In this document: positions 57,279-58,977 of the stretch, one piece after another
How positions within the stretch are numbered: position 1 is the first letter of the stretch
Layout of the letters: each line of letters begins with the position of its first letter
Assembly: GCF_040786275.1 (NCBI RefSeq)
Contig: NZ_JBFMVT010000002.1
Span: 620,001-684,000, forward strand
Source of the DNA: Buttiauxella gaviniae
GTDB taxonomy: Bacteria > Pseudomonadota > Gammaproteobacteria > Enterobacterales > Enterobacteriaceae
Reading direction: 5' to 3'
DNA: 64,000 nucleotides
Notes under the pieces: generated by a model
Databases searched by the model: none
Seen by the model: the letters and a program-made list of their open reading frames with translations, nothing else
What the model was told of the DNA's origin: nothing
Translations under genes and position numbers: made by a program

Positions 57279-57470
57279 ATGGAATGGCTATCGCACTACT
57301 GGTGGGTTATCGTACTGGTGCTTCTGCTCGGTATCTTCCTTAATGTAATTAAGGATTTGAAGCGTATTGACCCGAAAAAGTATATGGCAAATAAACCGGA
57401 TCTTCCCCCGCATCGTGACTTCAATCATAAGTGGGATGACGAAGACGATTTTCCTAAGAAAAAGCCTTAG
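57279..57470 (+). CDS. ypfN: Small membrane protein YpfN, UPF0370
   Basis: A 63-residue protein with one N-terminal transmembrane helix ([17 protein letters not shown], residues 8-24) and a charged cytoplasmic tail [40 protein letters not shown]0370; function unknown. AAGAGAGG precedes the ATG. Follows dapE by 64 bp, possibly the same transcript. Confidence 0.93.
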
Positions 57471-57595
57471 TTTTCCCTCGTCCCTCTTCAGTGGGAGAGG
57501 GCAAATAGTTGATCTGGCTCTATCTCTCCAGGAGAGGGCTCTTATATCGATCTCGCTCTGACAATCTTTCAGGGTGAGATCTATAAGTTGCTGAG
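57471..57595. repeat. Three small hairpins after ypfN
   Basis: CCCTCTTCAGTGGGAGAGGG (57480-57499), CTCTCCAGGAGAG (57525-57537) and an imperfect GATCTC...GAGATC stem (57549-57580). The first resembles dispersed CCCTCTCCC..GGGAGAGGG repeats of enterobacteria; none has a good T tail. Confidence 0.5.
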
Positions 57596-58197
57596 GTTTC
57601 CGTTCACCCAAGCGTTTGGTTTTTCCATGTAATAACGGCTTACGGTGAACGTGCCATGGGAATTACGCCATTCCCCTGGCGACCCCGGCGCCCGGCAAGT
57701 AAATCGCCGCTAAAGCGGTAAACCCCAGTTTTTCCCCAACATTCAGGGTCGTTCGCGACTCGTTCCTGACGATCGCTCTCTCACGTGGTTCCCGACCACG
57801 TGACCCTGACTGTTGGGGAAAAACTGGGGCGATTTAAGCCGGGAACAAGAGCGTTGCTGTAAGTTTCAGGAATATTGTAGCGTTGGCTTTGCTGAAAAAT
57901 ATAAAGCAATGCCGTGCAAAAGTAATAATACAGAGTGGAAGCAAGGGTTTTGGGTCCGGCTTAAATCGCCTCCCTTTTTCCTGATTTTTAGGGTCGAGCC
58001 GTCGGGAACGGCGAGAGGTTGTGATCCGTCGGGAACGAGTCACAACCGGCCCTAAAAATCAGGAAAAAGGGAGGTTTACCGCTTGCGGCGATTTATTGCC
58101 GGGAGCCGGGATTCGAAAGGGTGTGGCGGCGAACACCCTTTCGACGTTCACCAGTTCGGTTACTGCATAGAACACTGGGCATCGGGTGAACGGAAAC
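57596..58197. repeat. About 600-bp nested palindromic element, unclassified
   Basis: Ends: perfect 14-bp inverted match GTTTCCGTTCACCC (57596-57609) and complement (58184-58197). Inner trunk: 57684-57724 pairs with 58073-58110 with few mismatches. Branch 1: 19-bp perfect arms 57723-57741 / 57811-57829, then CAGGGTC/GACCCTG and a tip hairpin CACGTGGT..ACCACGTG. Branch 2: 15-bp perfect arms 57828-57842 / 57956-57970 around an AT-rich core. Branch 3: 25-bp perfect arms 57969-57993 / 58050-58074, with tip hairpins GCCGTCGGGAACGGC and GTTGTGA..TCACAAC. A further 11-bp stem is at 58115-58142 and GGTGAACGT/ACGTTCACC pair at 57644/58144. The 11-mer CGTCGGGAACG or a variant occurs four times at branch tips. 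Only short unconvincing frames exist. It could be a non-autonomous mobile element or a structured RNA; I do not recognise it. Confidence 0.75.
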
Positions 58198-58278
58198 TCC
58201 CGAAACTGACAGAGTGAATATCATCTGCACTCAACTGAAATTTATGACTAAGAGGCAACCCCTGCACGGGATTCCCCT

Positions 58279-58977
58279 CTACAGAAATTCAACAATATCG
58301 TCGTCTTTTGGCGTACTGCCGCTCAGTGCCTCATCAAAATAGTGCTTCGGCACCGTATAACGCAGATGATCCAGGGCAATCTGAATACTACGGTCATCAA
58401 TCGCATGCCCTAAATCGTCAATCACATCCAGCGTCACATCGCCACCCGCCTGCGTTAATGCTTCCGACGCATCAAAAGCGTGTTTAACGTCCACAACCTT
58501 ATCGTCATCGCCATGAATTAAATGGATGGTGGTTAAGGTTGAAGCGGTTTTTGGCAACTGCGCATAACGTCCGTTAAACGCCACGACGCGCGAAGCGAGC
58601 CCTGGCTCGGCTTTTACTCCCTCAAGCGCCATGATTGCCCCTTGCGAAAAACCAATCAACGCCGTCGCATTCGCCGTAATACCGCTCTGTTTTTGCCAGT
58701 GGCGCACCACTTCAATAAACGTCGGCATAATGGCGTCTACTCGCTGCTGGCGATTTTCTTCGCTAACACCCGCCACGGAAAACCATTCGCGCCCCTGATA
58801 CGGGCCGCTTGGAGCGGGGCCGCCAATACTGACCACCAGCGCATCAGGAAAATGCGGCGCAAACCAGCTCCCGATTTCACCCATTGCAACGGGGTTATCA
58901 CCAACGCCATGAAACAAAAGCAGCAGTTGTTTTGCAGGTGCCGCAGGGCTTTGGACAACAAAATGATCATGTTTCAT
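58279..58977 (-). CDS. ypfH: Alpha/beta-hydrolase esterase YpfH
   Basis: A 232-residue carboxylesterase of the phospholipase/carboxylesterase family. The nucleophile is the Ser of GFSQGAIMAL; Asp and His of the triad lie in IHGDDDKVVD and DLGHAID; the oxyanion region is LLLFHGVGDNP. E. coli YpfH has esterase activity on palmitoyl-CoA and p-nitrophenyl esters. GGAGAAAACC precedes the ATG. It lies 74 bp downstream of tmcA in the same direction. Confidence 0.95.
   Translation of the reverse strand: MKHDHFVVQSPAAPAKQLLLLFHGVGDNPVAMGEIGSWFAPHFPDALVVSIGGPAPSGPYQGREWFSVAGVSEENRQQRVDAIMPTFIEVVRHWQKQSGITANATALIGFSQGAIMALEGVKAEPGLASRVVAFNGRYAQLPKTASTLTTIHLIHGDDDKVVDVKHAFDASEALTQAGGDVTLDVIDDLGHAIDDRSIQIALDHLRYTVPKHYFDEALSGSTPKDDDIVEFL

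Follow-up and report, generated by a model that had tools for sequence, protein, structure and literature searches.

What kind of element occupies the gap between ypfN and ypfH in the stretch of DNA analysed here (the window, 64,000 nt)? A first-pass annotation had described a nested palindrome with perfect arms of 14, 19, 15 and 25 bp, and considered three explanations: a mobile element that is non-autonomous, a large structured RNA, or a DNA site with a structural role. A search for perfect inverted arms of at least 13 bp in window positions 57530–58265 returned exactly four (25, 19, 15 and 14 bp) and placed them identically (Table 1). Within 57596–58197, 50 13-mers have an inverted match, compared with a mean of 0.09 and a maximum of 6 in 1000 mononucleotide shuffles.

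Architecture of the palindrome

The predicted single-strand DNA fold of the 602 nt has an energy of −203.6 kcal/mol, whereas 20 dinucleotide-shuffled versions give −93.4 ± 4.2 (z = −26). In shape it is a trunk bearing a central hairpin flanked by two Y-shaped arms, which reproduces the trunk with three arms that had been proposed for a single strand. Each of the outer arms carries two sub-hairpins, and the two halves of the palindrome repeat one unit of about 243 nt in inverted orientation. The middle of the central hairpin is shorter in several other copies. The longest ATG/GTG/TTG frame lying wholly inside the element encodes only 80 aa and runs across the hairpins, in agreement with the earlier view that no transposase or credible protein is encoded.

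The borders originally given to the palindrome (57596–58197) had to be moved outwards, to about 57536 and 58258, as similarity among copies runs past them to TGTCTCTTATACACA-like ends. The element sits between ypfN, which ends at 57470, and ypfH (58279–58977, minus strand). A second copy in the same genome (L043, at 3994482) aligns with its ends at 84.5% over 71 bp on the left and 81.0% over 63 bp on the right. The left terminal repeat has CTCTTATA in common with CTGTCTCTTATACACAACTC, the start of complete copies in the richest genome seen (G009), and the right one agrees with the right-end consensus at 15 of 20 positions, counted by eye. The ends of the window copy are decayed and fall below the thresholds used for scoring both ends, its assignment to the Tn5-ended copies being made via L043, and no target duplication is recognisable at its borders.

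Table 1. Positions of the element and its component features in the window
Feature	Position	Strand	Basis
Whole element, ~723 bp, MITE-like	57536–58258	.	Ends set by alignment with L043
Left Tn5/IS50-type terminal repeat, decayed, GGGCTCTTATATCGATCTC	57536–57554	+	Alignment with L043 TTGTCTCTTATACAGGTCTC
Small hairpin adjoining left end, GATCTCGCTCTGA / TCAGGGTGAGATC, with G-T pairs	57549–57581	+	Sequence; same region in G009 copies
14-bp perfect inverted arm	57596–57609 / 58184–58197		Inverted-arm search
Left TRIP1-like unit (GGA strand minus)	57599–57843	-	Unit alignment; model R1
Trunk joining both units, ~57684–57724 with 58073–58110	57684–58110	.	DNA fold
First arm, 19-bp perfect stem closing left Y	57723–57829 (57723–57741 / 57811–57829)	.	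Inverted-arm search
Left unit GGA hairpin a, loop CAGGA on minus strand	57755–57776	-	Unit alignments
Left unit GGA hairpin b, loop CGGGA on minus strand	57781–57803	-	Unit alignments
Central hairpin, 15-bp perfect stem, 113 nt between arms	57828–57970 (57828–57842 / 57956–57970)	.	
Right TRIP1-like unit (GGA strand plus)	57955–58194	+	Model R1
Third arm, 25-bp perfect stem closing right Y	57969–58074 (57969–57993 / 58050–58074)	.	
Right unit GGA hairpin b, loop CGGGA	57998–58012	+	Unit alignments
Right unit GGA hairpin a, loop CGGGA	58018–58046	+	Unit alignments
Right terminal repeat, decayed	58239–58258	-	Alignment with L043; G009 right ends

Terminal repeats, target sites and distribution

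Complete copies in G009 begin with CTGTCTCTTATACACAACTC and, read inwards from the other end, with CTGTCTCTTAGTCACATCTT. Both Tn5/IS50-type ends (CTGTCTCTTATACACA...) were detected in 23 of 63 loci, the window included among the 63, and the elements so delimited are 257–731 bp long; the remaining 40 loci lie below the thresholds. Perfect direct repeats of 8–11 bp (for example CCCAAAGGG, CGCTTAATG and CTCAGTCCG) border eight of the 23, when the element borders are left free to shift by up to 2.

When the flanks are rejoined, the target sites fold into hairpins, often CCCTCTCC..GGAGAGGG, a stem of at least 6 bp being present in 9 of 22 cases compared with 33 of 2250 control sites; one of the 23 both-ended elements (L125) was left out of this comparison as its flank is too short. 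With up to one mismatch, the pattern TGTCTCTTATACAC occurs 21 times in G009 against once for the reversed pattern, and it is present in all 12 genomes of the window genus, although it does not exceed the reversed control in some of them (G011, 1 versus 3; G006, 2 versus 2; G010, 1 versus 1). Hairpins of the form CCCTCTCC..GGAGAGGG with CCCTCACCC neighbours are found at window positions 57475–57540 and at L176, L181 and L186; they recur at intergenic sites, serve as insertion target and appear to be a separate repeat family.

Within its own genome (4.76 Mb) the unit is present at three places, the window, 3838072 and 3994526. Relatives of the window element were detected at E ≤ 0.001 in 17 of 99 genomes when the best five candidates per genome were scored; on that scoring 11 of the 12 genomes of the window genus match, its own included (G006 gave none), and the matches in other genera are short pieces of one arm only. 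Among the best 40 of 49 candidates in G009, there are at least 85 matching pieces at 36 or more distinct places, of which at least 32 span 250 bp or more. Searches with the window element gave nothing in E. coli genomes or in phages, and in plasmids one match of 54 bp; a source in any of these was rejected on that account. One G009 element searched against plasmids and E. coli genomes likewise gave no match. Two other loci in the window genome (L137 and L138, at 557467 and 1318848) show TGTCTCTTATACAG ends by CTC..GAG-rich flanks, have no match to the unit and are perhaps remnants of further elements.

That the palindrome is an insertion between ypfN and ypfH, as first proposed, is supported by its congeners. 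Five of the 12 genomes have a short gap (44–119 bp) and no element at this position: 75 bp in G009, 119 bp in G005, 44 bp in G003, 56 bp in G010 and, from hit coordinates, about 55 bp in G011. The others comprise the window genome, one with another insert (G007) and five in which the gap could not be resolved, G002 among them. Hairpins of the CCCTCTCC type lie in the gap of G009, G005 and G002, the contig of the last ending inside the gap. The G007 insert (L179) is distinct, about 0.7 kb long, and resembles a minus-strand gene; similar starts are seen at L178 (G008) and L180 (G004). The search of own and related genomes that had been recommended has thus yielded dispersed copies, shared ends and sites without the element. 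Relatives in 11 of the 12 congeneric genomes, Tn5-type ends with target duplications elsewhere and the empty gaps all support the option of a non-autonomous mobile element.

A candidate source of the transposase

An apparently intact IS50-like element is present in two copies (L202 and L211) in a genome of another genus (G232). Its 469-aa open frame is bracketed by CTGTCTCTTATACACA, the 16-bp end that it has in common with the palindromic element, and by CTGTCTCTTGATCAGATCT, and the borders of L202 carry a perfect 9-bp duplication (CGTGTAAGC). The product of L202 matches Tn5 transposase structures (E 3.3e-85) as well as an NCBIfam IS4 family model, PF14706 and PF01609 of Pfam, and not PF02281. 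Since the same 16-bp end bounds an IS encoding a Tn5 transposase homologue, the ends of the element are, as judged from their sequence, of Tn5/IS50 type, and a transposase of the IS50 group very likely moved it.

The partner appears to be missing at least from G009. No autonomous partner was found in the same genome as the element by profile search: PF02281, the Tn5 dimerisation domain, was detected in none of the 12 window-genus genomes (family-wide, in 7 of 198), and PF01609 in two of the six window-genus genomes searched, G009 not being one of the two. PF02281 is a weak test for the partner, as it misses the best candidate IS (L202). One PF01609 match (L237, in G000) has no Tn5-type ends.

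Among 198 family genomes, 11 contain CTGTCTCTTATACACA, and in two of these (G034 and G191) it resembles a sequencing adapter. Contig ends of these two assemblies (L199, L200, L208 and L209) carry CTGTCTCTTATACACATCTCCGAGCCCACGAG.., which misleads searches for Tn5-type ends. The CTGTCTCTTATACACATCT / CTGTCTCTTATACACATCTCCGAGCCCACGAG.. sequences there look like Nextera adapter retained in draft assemblies, and the occurrences of CTGTCTCTTATACACATCT at contig ends of G034 and G191 were discounted as such. The G009 ends are unlike adapter, being internal, diverging after ACACA and carrying duplications.

Homology of the repeated unit to TRIP1

A search for the unit gave 108 arms, of which 81 were distinct after filtering by length and start and 55 were less than 95% identical; 26 units of the window genus were used to build a covariance model (model R1). 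This model recovers TRIP1a (E 1.6e-7, L227), TRIP1c (1.5e-7, L228) and TRIP1b (8.3e-8, L229; 4.3e-8, L230) of E. coli. It matched all 12 Klebsiella loci, two of them weakly (E 0.0013 and 0.043), and 51 of the 55 loci given to it, those without a match being L156, L159, L164 and L216. Of 65 matches, 53 are on the strand bearing the GGA loops described below (the GGA strand), one is on the other strand (L170) and 11 are not comparable. In the window, the model matches the left unit at 57690–57843 on the minus strand (E 4.4e-37) and the right unit at 57955–58104 on the plus strand (E 4.2e-30), both units being themselves in the training set. An order-wide search with model R1, restricted to at most 20 candidates per genome and strict filters, gave matches in at least 4 of 148 genomes (three of the window genus and one of the family).

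Used as query, a related element from another genome (L040, G051) gave matches at E ≤ 1e-6 in 30 of the 149 family genomes; among 5426 E. coli genomes, 5375 had matches, with a median of three places. Its annotated places in E. coli are aqpZ–lysO, putP–efeU and dusC–yohP. The gene names lysO, dusC and efeU are synonyms of ybjE, yohI and ycdN. The three places correspond to the loci of TRIP1a, b and c (PMC10888264). On sequence comparison the unit is homologous to E. coli TRIP1, as model R1 finds TRIP1a, b and c. The statement that the family could not be named is thereby answered in part only: the unit is related to TRIP1, and the terminal repeats belong to the Tn5/IS50 type.

In the accessible part of its description, TRIP1 is a GC-rich repeat of 146–273 bp, present in 96% of 6725 E. 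coli genomes with a conserved double-Y RNA structure and located in K-12, as TRIP1a, at NC_000913.3 915016–915281; possible non-coding RNAs are suggested and no function is named (PMC10888264). TRIP1 is thus an E. coli repeat with no demonstrated function; that part of the text deals with E. coli only, makes no link to other genera, and mentions neither transposon-type ends nor CsrA. Titles, abstract beginnings and term counts in the wider literature gave no link of TRIP1 to CsrA or Tn5-type ends. In contrast to TRIP1, the units of the window genus are paired, inverted and enclosed by Tn5-type ends, at 36 or more places in one genome, and have loops of the form CNGGA rather than A(N)GGA. In a genome of another genus (G123, L201), a TRIP1-like unit is again enclosed by Tn5-type ends. 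A TRIP1-like copy also lies between asmA and yegH in E. coli (L171:1500–1760; in K-12, L216:486–760); it is complete in some strains and lacks the Y in K-12, and this locus is absent from the five TRIP1 loci named in the accessible part of PMC10888264.

A search of the window against Rfam returned only tRNAs at gathering score, with sub-threshold matches otherwise, and five loci gave only sub-threshold matches and none to CsrB or CsrC. A known Rfam family for the element was rejected, there being no match at gathering score.

Conservation of a predicted RNA structure

Read from the GGA strand, the predicted fold of the unit begins with an outer stem, followed by a long stem capped by a two-hairpin Y, then a small hairpin and two further hairpins. 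The check by a covariance model of homologues, also suggested at the outset, revealed compensatory double changes in 30 of 64 pairs among the 55 non-redundant units. On a tree of 81 units, with the structure defined without G-U pairs, Watson–Crick pairs changed to other Watson–Crick pairs 129 times, to G-U 24 times, to A-C 7 times and to other combinations 25 times. Gains of G-U thus make up 24 of 31 G-U and A-C gains on the GGA strand (p 0.0017), and 28 of 42 (28:14, p = 0.022) when the structure is chosen on the opposite strand.

Other measures weigh against this strand bias. Counts that permit G-U in each strand's own structure were set aside as strand evidence, because each strand's structure favours itself: in the window genus they give a G-U excess on both strands by cells (161:14 and 199:48) and 22:3 and 7:16 by columns, and in other genera 24:10 and 23:6; the strand-neutral count in other genera is only 6:2. 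The units of other genera came from 79 matches, reduced to 64 distinct matches of at least 120 nt and to 61 by removal of three from the window genus; 46 non-redundant units were used for the pair counts. Fold z-scores show no preference in the 16 of 81 units compared (mean −7.0 for the GGA strand versus −7.4, the GGA strand being better in 6 of 16). In 80 of 81 units the raw minimum free energy is lower for the GGA strand; as the z-scores are similar between strands, this reflects composition, and it was rejected as evidence after the shuffle control.

The loops of the two Y-hairpins keep GGA in 79 and 81 of the 81 window-genus units, and in the other genera in 61 of 61 (loop b) and 57 of 61 (loop a). 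The option of a structured RNA is therefore upheld in part: covariation, conserved loops and the strand-biased G-U excess argue for it, and the lack of strand preference in the z-scores does not. On balance, these sequence comparisons incline us slightly to the view that the unit acts as an RNA read from the GGA strand.

A doubtful but serious alternative is that the element is selfish palindromic DNA with no RNA function, its stems being kept by template switching or gene conversion and its fold mattering, if at all, as DNA. The excess of changes between Watson–Crick pairs (129, against 56 to G-U, A-C or other mismatches) also suggests conversion or template switching, and one hairpin (H2) has up to four pair types and almost no wobble. 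The similar z-scores of the two strands would fit this alternative, as would the promoter scan and the antisense position of the GGA strand at some loci, both described below. It accounts less well for loops that keep GGA while the stems change, since correction between arms need not preserve loops, or for the excess of G-U over A-C gains on one strand, seen even in the structure chosen on the other.

GGA loops and CsrA

The GGA loops of the window genus have C and a variable base before GGA (CNGGA) and no conserved A; in loop two the variants are CGGGA (56 units), CTGGA (18), CAGGA (6) and CCGGA (1), closed by U-A or C-G. A(N)GGA is present in both loops in 47 of the 61 units from other genera, where two of the 61, at L170 (G114, another genus), have loops of the window type. 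E. coli TRIP1a has UUACAGGGAUGU and CACAUGGAUGUG, and TRIP1 loops mostly show A(N)GGA, the CsrA/RsmE form. As far as the available text of PMC7652899 goes, the SELEX consensus for CsrA is RUACARGGAUGU, mostly in hexaloops closed by AC/GU, most of the selected hairpins have four or fewer contiguous pairs, and the RsmE loop is ANGGAN. The small number of contiguous pairs in the selected hairpins and the missing A in the window-genus loops count against the CsrA reading.

Since the GGA loops of the unit resemble these loop forms, CsrA is the leading candidate for a binding partner. The two GGA hairpins may bind CsrA, with read-through transcripts from either side carrying the sites; we rate this, from the loop sequences, as a good possibility that falls somewhat short of an even chance, and as likelier for the TRIP1 repeats of E. 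coli and Klebsiella than for the window genus. Both the RNA and the CsrA readings have been weighted down for the absence of a promoter match and for the pair counts.

GGA in hairpin loops on variable stems is a likeness to the CsrA-sequestering RNAs CsrB/CsrC and RsmX/Y/Z and to RrA/B/F, and the rrn-derived RrB binds CsrA in vitro via GGA motifs (PMC8144298, in its accessible part). The TRIP1-type unit has two GGA sites 26–28 nt apart on one strand; it differs from CsrB/CsrC and RsmX/Y/Z in having only two sites per unit, in being dispersed, and in lacking an Rfam match to CsrB or CsrC at the five loci. A broader proposal, which we hold more tentatively than CsrA binding itself, extends this to the Enterobacteriaceae as a whole, in which TRIP1-type repeats would serve as scattered RNA modules that bind CsrA. 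In the window genus such a module would have been doubled into an inverted pair that works in either orientation, enclosed by Tn5-type ends and multiplied in the genome; a transposable element would thereby be delivering sites for a global post-transcriptional regulator to 3′ gene regions. If CsrA does bind, the dispersed repeats would be part of a CsrA titration system and transposition could wire genes into CsrA control. Taken with the TRIP1 homology and the mobile double form, the conservation of the GGA loops makes a specific function testable in E. coli K-12.

Transcription signals and gene context

No promoter-like match was returned by a scan of window positions 57400–58400 and of the surroundings of TRIP1a. 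A terminator scan found no site inside 57539–58258 (it placed sites only at the left border of the element and, in one case, within ypfH) and none around TRIP1a. In the cases seen where the neighbouring genes run in the same direction, the GGA strand is antisense to them (aqpZ–lysO, putP–efeU in two strains, and one Klebsiella site by ccmI); dusC–mdtQ would be a further such case if the small gene yohP is disregarded. Eight of the 12 Klebsiella places lie between convergent genes, one between genes in the same direction, and three have a neighbour that is not annotated, the gene table being incomplete. The window copy is also flanked by convergent genes, and between such genes the orientation of the GGA strand is uninformative. 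The double element has one GGA unit on each strand, so its orientation on insertion would not matter.

This context raises the unlikely alternative that the element acts between convergent genes as a terminator or insulator in both directions; the hairpins would then stop or stabilise read-through, and the protein-binding loops would be incidental. The convergent genes at the window and at eight of the Klebsiella places suggest it, as does insertion into terminator-like hairpins, but repeats are expected in convergent gaps anyway since promoters are avoided, the terminator scan was negative within the element and around TRIP1a, and the conserved GGA loops are left unexplained. A one-off local rearrangement of ypfN–ypfH sequence, to which the CCCTCTCC-type hairpins in that gap of three congeners might point, has a negligible probability and was rejected, given the two further places in the same genome and the relatives with shared ends in 11 of the 12 genomes of the genus.

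Proposed origin and relation to known elements

The explanation that we regard as probable is a MITE-like element with Tn5/IS50-type ends and TRIP1 identity, with an RNA read from the GGA strand or CsrA binding as the leading function. An IS50-group transposase acting in trans would have mobilised this non-autonomous element, which would have inserted downstream of ypfN, probably into a hairpin of the CCCTCTCC..GGAGAGGG type. Its cargo would be two inverted copies of a TRIP1-type unit, whose GGA hairpins may provide CsrA sites on read-through transcripts from either side.

Like IS-derived MITEs (Tn5/IS50 group, IS4 family), the element is short, has no credible coding capacity, has ends like those of ISs with a Tn5-like transposase in the same family, and is associated with duplications of about 9 bp. 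It differs from them in its large structured cargo, in having no autonomous partner in the congeners searched and in its target, the apex of one type of hairpin repeat. REP/BIME, ERIC and similar enterobacterial palindromes are intergenic, dispersed and palindromic, as the element is; it is much larger than these, compound, and has IS-type ends. Even without a role for CsrA, it provides an example of Tn5-type MITEs aimed at hairpin apices. A different repeat of 157 bp has the same Tn5-type ends (L197 and L214 in G127, L205 in G209) and lies within hairpins of the CTCTCC..GGAGAG type or is bordered by repeated ATCTTATAGT.
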